This document shows, piece after piece, positions 1 to 17,835 of a stretch of 22,728 nt of DNA. This stretch comes from a virus, in IMG/VR virus record IMGVR_UViG_3300031658_000146, positions 1-22,728 of that record; one strand, given 5' to 3'. Position numbers and translations under genes: made by a program. Position 1 is the stretch's first letter, and each line of letters begins with the position of its first letter. The notes beneath the pieces are model-generated. The model was not told where the DNA came from and did no database searches. It worked only from the letters and a program-made list of their open reading frames with translations.

Positions 1-3000
1 TATCTGTGTAATTACTAGAATGGATATTAGATGAGTTAGTTAATGACCAATCAATATGTTCATTAGCAACGAAGCCTGTTAGACTATCATGAGTGAAGTC
101 AGAGGATACATAAGTAGTATCAGTAAAAACTGCTCCACTTGGCACTGCTGTTTCTACTAAAGGATGAACTACGTTAGTAACTTTAGCAGTGTTAGCTGTT
201 ATTGCTGAAGCTTGACTAGGAGTTATTCCTACTTTAGCAGTGTTAGCCGTAACACTAGCATTGGCTGAAACTCTAGCTTCAGTATAATATTTATTAGAAC
301 TATTCTCCGAAACATTAGTTGTATCTAGAGTAACAACACCTGTCTTTCCAGCAACACTAAGTACGTTATCTGTTGGTGTTGATAAGAGGGTGTAATCAGC
401 CATTGTACCTGCTGATCCACTATTATGTATGTAGGCTTTGTTCTCATCGGAACGGACTACTACATCTCCCTCTTGAGCAGTTAGGGATAAATGAGCCGTT
501 TGATTAGCCGCAGTCTGTACCGTTGTTAGGGCGAGTGCTGTAACACTAATCACACCAGCGCCTGTTATACCTACTCCAGTACCTGCTGAATAAGTAGTAT
601 CAGTAAACACTGCACCACTAGGTACTGCTGTTTCTACTAAAGGGTGAACTACGTTAGTAACTTTAGCAGTGTTAGCTGTTATTGCTGAAGCTTGACCTAC
701 TGTAATGCCTGTCTTAGCTGTATTAGCCAACACTTGAGTATTGTTAGTAATTATGCCTTGTACAGTTGTGGTGTATACTCCATTAGTGACAGTACCAGCG
801 TTCCCACTGACAGCTGTTTGAACTATGTTAGGTGCAGAGTTAGTCAAAGTAACAGAACCAGAAGTACCTCCGCCAGACATACCAGTGCCTGCTGTGACAC
901 CTGTAATATCACCTACGTTAGCTGTTGCCCCTGAGGCAATACCGTCTAACTTAGACTTATCAGCACCTGTCTGTACACCTGCAACCGTAGTAGTAGCTGC
1001 TGGTATGACTGCGTTGGTACCATCTGAGCTATTGACAGTGACTGTAGTTGATGCTGTAGTAGTAGATAGGTTAGTCGTTACGTTGTGATTAACGTCAGAT
1101 ACCTTCGCAGTGTTAGCTGTTATTGCTGAAGCCTGAGCTGCTGTAATACCTGTCTTTGCTGTATTCAATGCAACGGCATCTGAAGCTGTAGATGAATAAG
1201 AGATCTTTGCTGTGTTAGCTGTGATTGCTGTAGCTTGACTTCCAGTGACACTAGTGGCTGCAATACCTAAAGAGTCAATATCTGTCTTAGTTTGATCTGC
1301 AGTTGCATTAGCTTCAATAGTATCTAGTTTAGTTCCATCTACTGATACATCACGACCATCAAAGGTGCTGGTAGTTGTGATAGCGCCTGTAAAGGCTGCA
1401 CCTGTTAGTAAGGCTGCACCTGATAGTGATGCATAGGCTGCTACCCAAGCACTACCTTCATAGACTTTCATAACATCATCAGTCGTATTGAAGTAAAGCG
1501 AACCAGCTAATAATGTAGCTCCATCATTATCTGTTGTAGGATTAGATGCTTTCTGACCCAAGTATCTATCATCAAAAGAGTCAAAGGCTGCTAATGCCGC
1601 ATCTCTTGCTGCTTCCGCTGCTGACTTAGCCGTTGCTGCACTTGTTGCAGATGTGGAAGCTTCAGAGGCTTTAGTGGTTGCTGTAGAAGCAGAGGTTGAA
1701 GCAGATGTAGCAGATGTAGCAGCGCCAGTAGCACTAGTGGCTGCATTGGTTGCAGATGTAGAAGCTTCAGATGCCTTAGTTGTTGCAATGTCTGCTTTAG
1801 TGGTTGCTGTAGTGGCAGATGTAGAAGCCGCAGTTGCACTGGTACTTGCTGCGTTAGACGATGTAGTTGCTGAGGCAGCTTTAGTTGTAGCTGTAGAAGC
1901 AGAGGTTGAAGCAGATGTAGCACTAGATGCTGCATTGGTTTCACTAACAGCTGCATCATCTTCACTAGACTGTGCATTAGTAGCAGACGTAGAAGCTTCA
2001 GATGCTTTAGTTGTAGCAGTGGAGGCAGAAGTGGATGCTGCTGAAGCACTCGCCGCCGCTTCACTTGCTTTAGTTGTAGCAGTGCTAGCTTGTGTAGTAG
2101 CTGTAGATGCCGATCCAGATGCTGCTGTCGCGCTAGAAGAGGCTTCATTTGCTTTAGTAGTTGCTGTGGAAGCATTAGTTCCTGAAGATACTACATCAGC
2201 ATTAGTCAGTACAACGTCTGCGTTGGTAGTGATCTTGTCTAAGCCAGTTTGCACTTTGTCAGCTTCAGCTAATACTACGTCAGCGTGGGTTAATACCACG
2301 TCAGCATTTGTAGCTATCTTATCTAAACCAGTCTGTACCTTATCAGCTTCAGCAAGAACTACATCAGCATGAGTAAGCACTACATCCGCATTGGTTGATA
2401 CCTTATCCGCTGCAGTTACTATTGCTGCTGCTAATACTGCATCATACTTAGCTATGTACTCTGTAGTTGAAGAACCAGCAGCACCTGTGGCACCTGTAGG
2501 TCCTGCTACAGTAGAGTCAGCTCCTGTGGCACCTTGAGGTCCTGTAGAGCCTGTGGCACCTGTAGGTCCAACCACAGTAGAGTCAGCTCCTGTAGAGCCT
2601 TGAGCGCCTGTAGCTCCTATAGAGCCTTGAGGTCCTCTAGGTCCTGTAGAGCCTGTAGGTCCTGTAGGCCCTGCTACAGTAGAGTCAGTTCCTGCAGCTC
2701 CTGTAGTGCCTGTATATCCTCTAGGCCCTGCTACAGTAGAGGTAGGTCCTGTGGCACCTGTAGGTCCTGCTACAGTAGAGTCAGCTCCAGTAGAGCCTGT
2801 GGCACCTTGAGGTCCTGTAGAGCCTGTAGGCCCTGCTACAGTAGAGGTAGGTCCTGTGGCACCTGTAGGTCCTGTAGATCCTGTGGCACCTTGAGCGCCT
2901 GTAGAGCCTGTGGCACCTGTGGGTCCAACTACAGTAGAGTCAGCTCCTGTAGAGCCTTGAGCGCCTGTAGAGCCTGTAGATCCTGTGGCACCTGTGGGTC

Positions 3001-3445
3001 CAACTACAGTAGAGTCAGCTCCTGTAGAGCCTTGAGCGCCTGTAGCTCCTATAGAGCCTTGAGGTCCTGTAGAGCCTGTAGGCCCTGCTACAGTAGAGTC
3101 AGCTCCTGTAGAGCCTTGAGGTCCTGTAGAGCCTACAGGTCCTGTGGCACCTGTAGGTCCTGTAGAGCCTTGAGCGCCTGTGGCACCTGTAGGACCTGTA
3201 GGTATACCAAAGGCTAACACACCTGTAGAACTTGTATAACCAGCCGTTGCGTTTGAACCTAAAGTTAGTGTAGAAGCTGTGGCTGTTACTTCTTTAATTT
3301 CCGATGCACTTGAGGCTGCTTCTGTTGCACTCGTTGCTGCAGCGGTTGCTGAATTTGCGGCACTAGTTGCCTGTGTTGTAACTGCGTTGATCGTAGAGTC
3401 AGTTGTTGAATCTCCTGAACCCCCTATACCACGAAATATAGCCAT
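1..3445 (-). CDS. Giant collagen-like / coiled-coil tail fibre (3' end outside window)
   Basis: Open reading frame of at least 1148 codons from the ATG at 3445, with no stop before the left edge. It is likely a receptor-binding tail fibre. Seen in the translation: an N-terminal Ala/Ser/Thr-rich part starting [12 protein letters not shown]; a collagen-like Gly-X-Y block (GPTGATG, GPQGSTG, with STVAGP or STVVGP interruptions) at about residues 80-322; heptads of the type xxADVVL at about 335-412; a long low-complexity [11 protein letters not shown] coiled-coil stretch to about 615; then [29 protein letters not shown] and SLSGAALTG-like motifs (about 630-690) typical of marine podovirus fibres; then repeated ITANTAKV units and [10 protein letters not shown] near the edge. 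The receptor-binding C-terminus is missing from the window. It follows the capsid gene after a terminator. Function is inferred from the fibre-type repeats and location; confidence that it is a fibre is high, its exact attachment role unknown. Confidence 0.9.
110..216. repeat. Long direct repeat in fibre gene, copy 1
   Basis: This roughly 107-bp stretch recurs exactly 480 bp (160 codons) to the right at 590-696 with only a few mismatches. It encodes the fibre segment containing [18 protein letters not shown]. Because the offset is in frame, the repeat probably arose by in-frame duplication and could recombine without disrupting the gene. A shorter related copy lies near 1100-1135. Confidence 0.85.
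590..696. repeat. Long direct repeat in fibre gene, copy 2
   Basis: Second copy of the repeat at 110-216, in the same orientation and reading frame. Differences are scattered single bases, mostly silent. Confidence 0.85.
2232..2399. repeat. Two tandem 84-bp heptad-coding repeats
   Basis: Two adjacent 84-bp units (2232-2315 and 2316-2399) each encode 28 residues, that is four heptads: [21 protein letters not shown] and TGLDKIA or TGLDKIT. This is the rigid coiled-coil part of the fibre immediately after the collagen-like block. The unit length is a multiple of both 3 and 7 codons, so copy-number change would keep frame and heptad register. Confidence 0.85.
2480..3210. repeat. Collagen-like Gly-X-Y coding repeat block
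   Basis: On the minus strand this block encodes uninterrupted Gly-X-Y triplets (mostly [15 protein letters not shown]) broken at intervals by DSTVAGP or DSTVVGP. Near-identical DNA segments recur inside it; for example the sequence around 2571-2641 returns about 432 bp (144 codons) away around 3003-3073. Such blocks form triple-helical rods in phage fibres and tend to vary in length between related phages. Confidence 0.9.
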
Positions 3446-3470
3446 TGTTTTTACCACTGTTGTTAAATCT

Positions 3471-3519
3471 AAAGAAAAAAAGGGAGCCTCAAGTGTTCTT
3501 TAAGTACCTGAGGCTCCCT
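3471..3519 (-). terminator. Intrinsic terminator after the capsid gene
   Basis: On the minus strand a perfect 11-bp stem AGGGAGCCTCA / TGAGGCTCCCT (3519-3509 with 3491-3481), loop of 17 nt, is followed directly by a run of T (TTTTTTTC). It sits 19 bp after the capsid stop codon, where high-level capsid transcripts would be cut before the tail fibre. The stem also has potential as a 5' stem-loop (see finding on the T7-like motif). Confidence 0.9.
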
Positions 3520-9703: not shown

Positions 9704-9735
9704 ATCAATTACCTCTATGTTGAGATTGAGTCTTA

Positions 9736-9764
9736 GTGTCTTAAGTATACTTAAGTGTCTTAAG
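9736..9764 (-). promoter_or_regulatory. CTTAAG repeat element in the terS leader
   Basis: Contains the perfect 16-bp palindrome CTTAAGTATACTTAAG (9740-9755) and two direct copies of GTGTCTTAAG (9736-9745 and 9755-9764, plus-strand reading). Read in the direction of terS transcription, CTTAAGTATACTTAAGACAC matches the sequence at 13395-13414 in 19 of 20 bases. A further CTTAAG lies at 9826-9831 close to the start of transcription. Probably an operator or an RNA hairpin in the leader. Confidence 0.7.
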
Positions 9765-9842
9765 AGGCGTTAAGGATATTCTTTAATAATTCATAAAGTA
9801 ATAACTAAACGATCTCTTAAAGCTGCTTAAGTACATAAGTAT

Positions 9843-9871
9843 ATTATAACATATTTAGAGCTAAATGTCAA
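9843..9871 (-). promoter_or_regulatory. Perfect-consensus sigma-70 promoter for the virion operon
   Basis: On the minus strand: TTGACA at 9871-9866, spacer of exactly 17 bp, TATAAT at 9848-9843. Predicted start of transcription is near 9836, giving a 5' leader of about 133 nt before terS. A fully consensus promoter on late genes suggests that they are held back by a repressor or leader control, or else expressed from the beginning by host RNA polymerase. Confidence 0.92.
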
Positions 9872-9929
9872 CACTTATCTCATGTTTCTTGTATCTTCTC
9901 ACGTATACATAAGTGCCCTTAACGCTAAA

Positions 9930-9944
9930 TAAGAATCATTCTCA
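9930..9944. promoter_or_regulatory. Fur-box-like 7-1-7 element
   Basis: TAAGAATCATTCTCA matches the 7-1-7 ferric uptake regulator pattern TGATAAT-N-ATTATCA at 11 of 14 informative positions and holds the perfect palindrome AGAAT-C-ATTCT. It lies about 60 bp upstream of the -35 box of the terS promoter. A single site found by eye; it may be chance. Confidence 0.3.
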
Positions 9945-10149
9945 TTCCCGTGTGCACTGTAGGTTTCCTTTAGATTTCAATTGCATTCTTATGTTGACTT
10001 TACTAACAAAAGCAAAACCACTCTCTTTTGTGAGCTGGAGGGTACCACTGTTATTCACGAGTGAACTCACGCCCCCGCCCCCATCAGATCCCTAGCACAC
10101 ACAGGGCCTTGTGTCAACCTTGTGCAGCCCTAGGTATGCCGCAGTCAGA

Positions 10150-10188
10150 CCGTGACTACCTAAGGCACTTGAGTCACGGGGGTTGACA
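10150..10188 (+). promoter_or_regulatory. Inverted repeat + TTGACA unit 1
   Basis: Perfect 8-bp arms CCGTGACT (10150-10157) and AGTCACGG (10172-10179), followed by GGG and TTGACA at 10183-10188. The distance from the first arm to TTGACA is 33 bp, identical to unit 2. No convincing -10 box follows at 16-18 bp, so the TTGACA may be part of the repeat rather than a promoter. Confidence 0.65.
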
Positions 10189-10259
10189 GAAGTGTACAAG
10201 TGTGTGCCAAGGTGGGTGCCTACGGATGCTATAGCACACCATGGACACTATAGCAACTA

Positions 10260-10298
10260 TTGTGACTATTTAGCCTGCTATAGTCACAAGGGTTGACA
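10260..10298 (+). promoter_or_regulatory. Inverted repeat + TTGACA unit 2
   Basis: Perfect 10-bp arms TTGTGACTAT (10260-10269) and ATAGTCACAA (10280-10289), loop of 10 nt, followed by GGG and TTGACA at 10293-10298. Compared with unit 1 the outer two bases change from CC...GG to TT...AA, which keeps pairing. The downstream -10 candidate TAGTTG is weak. Confidence 0.65.
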
Positions 10299-10393
10299 AC
10301 GGCACGACACTGGTGTAGTTGAGACACCTATTGTTTATGCGCACACACGCGAGTATCATGCTTGCCTATGACTTGTCAAGTATTACTCATTAC

Positions 10394-10408
10394 GTGACTA
10401 GCCAGTCA
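10394..10408 (+). promoter_or_regulatory. Short inverted repeat upstream of the early promoter (unit 3)
   Basis: GTGACTA at 10394 and AGTCA at 10404-10408 form a shorter TGACT-AGCC-AGTCA hairpin 15 bp before the TTGACA of the functional-looking early promoter. It uses the same GTGACT/AGTCA arm sequence as units 1 and 2 but with a 4-nt loop. Confidence 0.5.
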
Positions 10409-10422
10409 GTTATCAATAGTGC

Positions 10423-10450
10423 TTGACACATTGCTAGTGTGGTGTATACT
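10423..10450 (+). promoter_or_regulatory. Sigma-70 promoter for the early operon
   Basis: TTGACA at 10423-10428, 16-bp spacer, TATACT at 10445-10450. It ends 44 bp before the first early gene, with no other gene between. It most likely drives the eleven small genes up to 13300. Confidence 0.85.
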
Positions 10451-10494
10451 TGACCCAACAACAACGCAACAGGCCCTAGGCCATTGGAGTTACT

Positions 10495-12228: not shown

Positions 12229-12597
12229 ATGATCAACACTACACAAACTAAAGCACAAGTAGAAGCAATGCTAGCTAAGTTAACAGTAAAGGAGCTACGC
12301 GACAAGCGTACAGGGCTGACCTTAGAAGCTAAAGCAATTTACAACCAGCTTTTAATGCTCAATTGGTCTGAACCATACATAACTATGGACGACCTAGAGC
12401 AAACAACAGGTATAGAGCGCCACACACTTGCACCAGTGCTTGGAGAGCTAATTAGTGCTAGGAGAGTATTATCAGGTAACGAGGACGTTTTAGGAGGCAC
12501 TGTGTACACTTATACGCCTATAATCAAAGGACAAGCGTATGGTTATCCCTTAGATTTCTTTAAGAGCTACTATGAATTTATGGAAAATGCTTTATGA
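12229..12597 (+). CDS. Putative winged-helix-like early protein
   Basis: A 122-residue protein. Residues about 30-95 (LTLEAKAIYNQLLMLNWSE, ITMDDLEQTTGIERHTLAPVLGELISARRVL, then VLGGTVYTYTPI) read like a winged helix-turn-helix: a helix, a DDLEQTTGIERHTL turn, a recognition helix and a beta wing. That would make it a candidate DNA-binding regulator of the repeats in this phage, but the call is by eye and weak. AGGAG lies 10 bp before the ATG. The stop overlaps the next gene. Confidence 0.7.
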   Translation: MINTTQTKAQVEAMLAKLTVKELRDKRTGLTLEAKAIYNQLLMLNWSEPYITMDDLEQTTGIERHTLAPVLGELISARRVLSGNEDVLGGTVYTYTPIIKGQAYGYPLDFFKSYYEFMENAL

Positions 12598-13381: not shown

Positions 13382-13414
13382 GTGTCTTAAGGCTCTTAAG
13401 TGTACTTAAGACAC
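13382..13414 (+). promoter_or_regulatory. CTTAAG repeat element in the replication-operon leader
   Basis: Arms GTGTCTTAAG (13382-13391) and CTTAAGACAC (13405-13414) are perfect inverted repeats; between them is a third CTTAAG (13395-13400). CTTAAGTGTACTTAAGACAC at 13395-13414 differs at one base from the element in the terS leader. It may act as an operator or as a leader RNA hairpin controlling both operons together. Confidence 0.7.
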
Positions 13415-17310: not shown

Positions 17311-17835
17311 ATGACAACTATGCAATTAACACGCAGTAGACCTAATACAGTAATACTTGATCTTGATGGTGAGCAATGGTATGTACACTCTGATGGTGGA
17401 AGACGAAGATTAGACTCACTCCACCGCTTTAACGACAAGCGTATGTTTGTTAATAGTAAATATGTACCACAGACACACCCATTATGGAAGTCTGGAAGAT
17501 ACAAATCATTCAATGATGCAGCCTTTAGTTCTTTTGAGAATTATAAGAAAATAACTAAAGGTGAAGTATATATAATTACTAATAAAGCATGGCCTGAGTG
17601 GATTAAGGTTGGCAAGGCTGTTAACACAGAGGATCGGCTTAAGGGTTATCAAACAAGCGACCCTTTTAGAAGTTACAAAATACATCACTCCTTCAAGGTC
17701 AATAACCGCCATACTTTTGAAGTATTTTCACACGATCTCTTGAAAGGAGAGTGTACTGAGTTTAAGAATGAATGGTTTAAGATGAATCCTTGTCAAGCTA
17801 AGAAACTTATGGAGGTTGAACATGAAAAATGGTAA
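17311..17835 (+). CDS. GIY-YIG / T5orf172-like endonuclease (probable homing endonuclease)
   Basis: A 174-residue protein. The C-terminal two thirds show a GIY-YIG nuclease domain: GEVYIITN (Gly84, Tyr87), IKVGKAV (Gly101), DRLKGYQ (Arg109), TFEVFSHDLL (Glu137) and NEWF. All key residues are present. The N-terminal 80 residues (including KYVPQTHPLWKSGRYKSF) may bind DNA. The coding sequence is visibly more A/T rich than the neighbouring genes, and the gene sits between polymerase and exonuclease, a favoured site for free-standing homing endonucleases. AAGGA lies 6 bp before the ATG. The ribosome-binding site of the next gene lies inside its 3' end, and the genes overlap by 14 bp, so it is well integrated. 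It could alternatively be a host-directed nuclease. Confidence 0.85.
   Translation: MTTMQLTRSRPNTVILDLDGEQWYVHSDGGRRRLDSLHRFNDKRMFVNSKYVPQTHPLWKSGRYKSFNDAAFSSFENYKKITKGEVYIITNKAWPEWIKVGKAVNTEDRLKGYQTSDPFRSYKIHHSFKVNNRHTFEVFSHDLLKGECTEFKNEWFKMNPCQAKKLMEVEHEKW

Follow-up and report, generated by a model that had tools for sequence, protein, structure and literature searches.

Palindromic putative operators in the divergent control region of an uncultured marine phage lineage

Introduction

What purpose is served by a set of inverted repeats that lie beside TTGACA boxes between the two oppositely directed gene blocks of an uncultured phage: are they binding sites for a regulator, cruciforms, or elements of a replication origin? 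The DNA in question is a 22.7-kb virus record (IMG/VR IMGVR_UViG_3300031658_000146, positions 1 to 22,728), the whole of which is referred to here as the window. Its terminase, portal and capsid genes point leftward, and the early genes, followed by those for a T7-type primase-helicase and a family A DNA polymerase, point rightward. The palindromes lie in the divergent gap at 9704-10494, between the gene for the terminase small subunit on the minus strand and the early genes on the plus strand. The left part of this gap is AT-rich, and a GC-run is located at 10069-10083.

No close relative of the window phage was present in the isolate phage collection, where the matches to terminase, portal and polymerase all had less than 60% identity, and a blastn search of the gap against the isolate phages gave zero matches. 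Many relatives were found in IMG/VR. The lineage is an abundant, uncultured group of marine phages that lacks a close isolate in the phage collection searched. Elsewhere in the window, a large open reading frame with collagen-like repeats on the minus strand (2-3457) probably encodes a tail fibre, a terminator-like perfect 11-bp inverted repeat with a 17-nt loop (3481-3519) is located between the tail-fibre and capsid genes, and a T5orf172/GIY-YIG-like protein (17311-17835) is inserted between the polymerase and exonuclease genes.

Results

The gap contains two perfect palindromes of the form GTGACT-N14-AGTCAC, each beside a TTGACA box. Unit 1 (10150-10179, arms at 10152-10157 and 10172-10177) is followed on the plus strand by TTGACA at 10183-10188, 5 bp past the second arm. 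Unit 2 (10260-10289, arms at 10262-10267 and 10282-10287) is followed, again 5 bp past the second arm, by TTGACA at 10293-10298, which opens a promoter-like sequence on the plus strand, TTGACA-17-TAGTTG (10293-10321). The original prediction had described these arms and boxes, an identical distance of 33 bp from the first extended arm to TTGACA, and outer base pairs reading CC/GG in unit 1 and TT/AA in unit 2, and each of these observations was confirmed. The third, shorter copy that it had placed ahead of the early promoter was also recovered, as GTGACT-N4-AGTCAG at 10394-10409 (arms at 10394-10399 and 10404-10409), with half-sites 10 bp apart and not 20. It precedes the early promoter predicted from sequence on the plus strand, TTGACA-16-TATACT (10423-10450), and the relative L010 is arranged likewise. 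For the composition of the window, 0.0012 perfect copies of GTGACT-N14-AGTCAC were expected versus the two found, and the gap contained six perfect inverted repeats whose arms were 8 or longer (overlapping registers counted) versus 0.3 in dinucleotide shuffles. Lone GTGACT hexamers were not enriched in the window (20 versus 16 expected), hence the paired arrangement is the special feature. Palindromes of another kind, the CTTAAG type, are repeated at 9739-9835 and 13382-13414 and possibly mark another protein site; CTTAAGTA, which is of this type, occurs 155 times across 40 of 67 related gaps.

When IMG/VR was scanned for the palindrome together with TTGACA, 62 contigs had it at an arm spacing of 14, compared to three at spacing 13 and four at spacing 15. 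Lineage proteins were encoded by 60 of the 62 contigs, and the remaining two were L120, a chance hit, and L091, a fragment of a T4-like phage. The palindrome was placed between the terminase and early genes wherever a contig had both flanks, and in those relatives' contigs that were checked at their whole length it was restricted to this gap. Among the lineage members that carry it, terminase identity falls to as little as 47%. A set of loci retrieved through their terminase, independently of the motif, and then dereplicated contained 13 exact palindromes; all 13 had a spacing of 14, and no other spacing between 0 and 60 was seen. Cellular genomes (257 Gb), searched in the same way, yielded three unrelated hits and no host regulon. 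In the literature, searches for the palindrome and for arrays of DnaA boxes in phages of this type yielded nothing directly relevant. In the comparison of this gap among relatives, for which the original prediction had named unconserved arms as the contrary outcome, the arms proved to be conserved across the lineage. The gene order is also kept in many relatives without the palindrome, which is thus not essential to such phages.

The exchange of the outer base pairs between units 1 and 2 had been interpreted as covariation and as a sign of a selected structure. We examined covariation in 56 palindrome copies from 36 dereplicated loci, with the expectation derived from column composition. The pair just outside the arms was complementary in 20% of the copies versus 33% expected, the second pair outside in 18% versus 29%, and complementarity of the inner pairs was likewise not above expectation. 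The 12 arm bases were nearly invariant, the A and T just inside them were strongly favoured, and the other positions were free; the arms themselves yield no covariation, since their bases do not vary. As many of the 36 loci had been picked for exact arms, the test was repeated with an arm-independent anchor, the downstream GTGGGTGCC element. Exact unit-1 arms were present in 26 of 30 loci anchored in this way, and the exceptions had mostly lost the arms without compensation. The arms are conserved as sequence and not as pairing. Because the outer pairs match below expectation and covariation is absent, the CC/GG versus TT/AA exchange is a coincidence of two copies, and neither a cruciform nor an RNA structure is indicated. 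Conserved arms, a free loop and a fixed spacing form the sequence pattern of a dyad operator. Hence, of the selected elements proposed originally, an operator-type element in a promoter/origin region is retained, and the cruciform, for which the 56 copies offer no compensatory changes, is not.

The half-site reads GTGACTA. The long form (N14) sets its half-sites 20 bp or two helical turns apart, the short form (N4) 10 bp or one turn, so that in both they are on one face of the DNA. The spacer between the palindrome and TTGACA on the right was 3, 4 or 5 bp in 38 of 56 copies, and that to a mirrored TTGACA on the left was 3-5 bp in 26 of 56; the inner half-site usually lies 3-5 bp upstream of a -35 box, and a second -35 box is often mirrored opposite. 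Where the spacer is 14-15 in place of 4-5, the shift corresponds to about one helical turn. A spacer of 8, which breaks the helical phase, characterizes the group with 61-64% identity. Under a tentative direct-repeat reading, TTGACA as a possible fifth half-site is compatible with the 10-bp register.

Of 23 distinct left-facing flanks, 18 had the extended -10 sequence TGnTA at a distance of 17 or 18 bp behind TTGACA, and none had it at 15, 16 or 19 bp. Right-facing flanks outside the unit-1 class had TA at 17 in 11 of 18 cases, and at the position of unit 2 relatives have TATATG or TAAATG where the window has TAGTTG. With TTGACA as the -35 box and a -10 or extended -10 at 16-18 bp, the left-facing and unit-2-class flanks look like real, weak sigma70 promoters. 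In relatives too, the short form stands before promoter-like sequences; between the window and L096, for example, its position is shifted by about one turn. A scan anchored on TATAAT produced mostly chance hits inside genes and was discarded.

In the unit-1 class, a -10 at 15-19 bp behind TTGACA was found in none of 23 distinct relatives, and a promoter role of unit 1 is therefore doubtful. The place of the -10 is taken by a stretch reading TTGACA-agtGTatgCC-N3-GTGGGTGCC; in the window, the conserved element GTGTGTGCC-N3-GTGGGTGCC occupies 10200-10220 on the plus strand, and in relatives it lies one helical turn nearer or farther. It is the most conserved unit, that of the unit-1 class, which faces this conserved GTG element, at a distance of 22-24 or 32-34 bp from the palindrome, with one turn between these two sets of distances. 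The complete TTGACA-GTGTGTGCC-N3-GTGGGTGCC sequence (10183-10220 and in relatives) is single-copy and phased by one helical turn with the palindrome.

The gap is probably a replication origin region. In many relatives (among them L001, L004, L007, L015, L044, L051 and G001), the corresponding gap contains DnaA boxes with the consensus TTATCCACA in arrays whose members are spaced by multiples of about 11 bp, with up to 12 boxes per gap. These arrays adjoin a GC-run and an AT-rich stretch, and in a 39.9-kb contig all nine DnaA boxes lie inside the gap, within about 300 bp. The relatives thus display the clustering of DnaA boxes that is typical of a DnaA-type origin. No DnaA box (TTATNCACA; searched as TTAT[CA]CACA) was found in the window gap, and the arrays are also absent from the nearest two-palindrome relatives of the window. 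The phages with these oriC-like arrays have a polymerase and a T7-type primase-helicase of their own. In the window, the cumulative GC skew is lowest at 10160, and in several relatives its minimum likewise lies near the palindrome; this minimum also falls in the gap in 17 of 20 palindrome-lacking relatives, so the skew was dropped as palindrome-specific evidence and supports the gap, not the palindrome, as an origin or divergence point.

Several other explanations of the palindromes have to be weighed at this point. That the repeats arose by chance or by a recent local duplication and have no function is hardly credible: the two window copies are 70% alike over 37 nt, but the arms have stayed unchanged down to 47% terminase identity although loops and flanks have diverged, and the control spacings gave three and four contigs versus 62. 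It is very unlikely that the inverted repeats act as a DNA cruciform or RNA hairpin. Pairing is kept by different outer bases in the two window copies, and one degenerate copy, in L009, has partly symmetric changes. Against these stand the 56 copies without covariation, with outer pairs below expectation, the lack of any Rfam match, the long loop of 12-14 nt of free sequence, and the recurrence of the same protein-like half-site at N4 spacing. A possible but rather improbable alternative is that the palindromes are initiator-binding sites of the origin, with TTGACA as a part of the site or of a replication-priming transcript. This would fit the helically spaced TTATCCACA boxes in the same gap of many relatives, the position of the skew minimum, the TTGACA of unit 1 that lacks a -10, and the finding that two or three palindromes go together with zero DnaA boxes in the window, L010, L093, L107, L127 and L132. 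However, DnaA arrays and palindromes co-occur in several relatives, the short form and unit 2 are located at promoters, and the skew minimum is shared by palindrome-lacking relatives and can be caused by divergent gene direction alone.

If a protein binds the palindromes, it may be the phage's or the host's. Searches of the early proteins with Pfam and PHROGs did not find a regulator. The putative winged-helix protein named as a possible binder in the original prediction (12229-12597, plus strand) does have a predicted winged-helix fold (mean pLDDT 88.6) that resembles MarR-type DNA-binding domains; as a binder it is a weak candidate, and it was not found in divergent palindrome-bearing groups. 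Foldseek gave weak matches (best E 0.006), and a PDB profile search with the family returned nothing informative. In the main clade the family tracks the palindrome, being present in 16 of 16 palindrome-bearing loci examined and in 0 of 11-12 palindrome-lacking ones, but this split follows phylogeny and is seen in other early genes too. Moreover, the family was not detected in palindrome-bearing L116, L134/G005, L105 and L138, and its predicted recognition helix shows unconstrained variation (RHTLAP, KRQLAP, RSKLAP, IYNLTQ) whereas the arms stay the same. That this protein is the binder is hence doubtful in our estimation. The T4-like fragment L091, which shares no protein with the lineage and has a baseplate protein resembling PA5oct-type phages, has two divergent TTGACA-17-TATAAT promoters with the palindrome exactly between them (2900-3020), and a weaker parallel exists in L172/L178 (palindrome-4-GTGAAA-17-TATAAT). 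A one-sided single hit outside the lineage is expected by chance, but the two-sided arrangement in L091 is not easily so, which makes a host-encoded binder conceivable. We propose only tentatively, and regard as unlikely, that a host regulator binds the palindrome and that its site has been adopted separately by unrelated marine phages, namely the podovirus-like lineage, the T4-like L091 and possibly L172/L178. If true, early transcription and origin firing of these phages would read the state of the host via one host factor.

Discussion

Our favoured explanation, held with moderate confidence, is that the palindromes are putative operators for a dimeric or tetrameric regulator, in a divergent control region that probably doubles as a replication origin. 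The sequences themselves show the arms, how these are spaced and conserved, where they stand with respect to TTGACA and the extended -10, and that they lie in the gap. The operator reading is favoured by the confinement of 60 of 62 contigs to the lineage, the single spacing of 14, the retention of the arms next to free neighbouring positions, the placement relative to the -35 and -10 boxes, the one-turn shifts, and L091. It is weakened by the unit-1 class without a -10 (23 of 23), the spacer of 8 in the 61-64% identity group, and the palindrome-lacking relatives. A dimer or tetramer would occupy GTGACTA half-sites two turns (N14) or one turn (N4) apart on one face of the DNA. Centred near -54, the protein would be in reach of host RNA polymerase, and contact between the two could switch on or tune the divergent promoters. 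Judged from this placement, the putative regulator would probably activate rather than repress, and we infer that transcription here may feed both early expression and origin firing.

The palindrome, GTGACTA-N12-TAGTCAC, provides an exact and testable DNA target for a factor that would regulate early expression and perhaps replication as well. In addition, DnaA arrays are present in this gap in some relatives and missing in others, so that naturally occurring variants can be compared for the way in which lytic phages with their own replisome start replication.

The region resembles several known systems in part. The C-boxes of restriction-modification controller proteins have inverted GACT/AGTC-type half-sites, as do the palindromes here, and appear to differ from them in half-site spacing. 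Unlike in those systems, a PF01381 (HTH_3) controller was absent from 13 phage records including the window, with all control genomes positive, and restriction-modification genes were not seen in the window. Operators of the C.Esp1396I type come in pairs: a single bound dimer recruits sigma and so activates, whereas two dimers cause repression (PMC4041747). DnaA-dependent, oriC-like origins have a counterpart in the gap of the relatives, where TTATCCACA boxes, separated by multiples of about 11 bp, adjoin AT-rich and GC-run stretches; in contrast to such origins, the window lacks an exact DnaA box, and the phages have genes for a family A polymerase and a primase-helicase of the T7 type. The primary origin of T7 consists of tandem promoters and an AT-rich stretch near the early genes. 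The promoters of the gap here are divergent and sigma70-like, and a phage RNA polymerase was not seen in the window (a PF00940 search for T7-type RNA polymerase gave 0 matches in 12 records, with control genomes equally silent), but they too lie beside an AT-rich stretch near early genes. Compared to bacterial class I/II-type activator sites, the palindromes differ in their two-turn spacing, their invariant GTGACTA arms and the unit-1 class without a -10, but they share with these sites the dyad half-sites on one face of the DNA, the position a few bp upstream of the -35 box, and the one-turn shifts.
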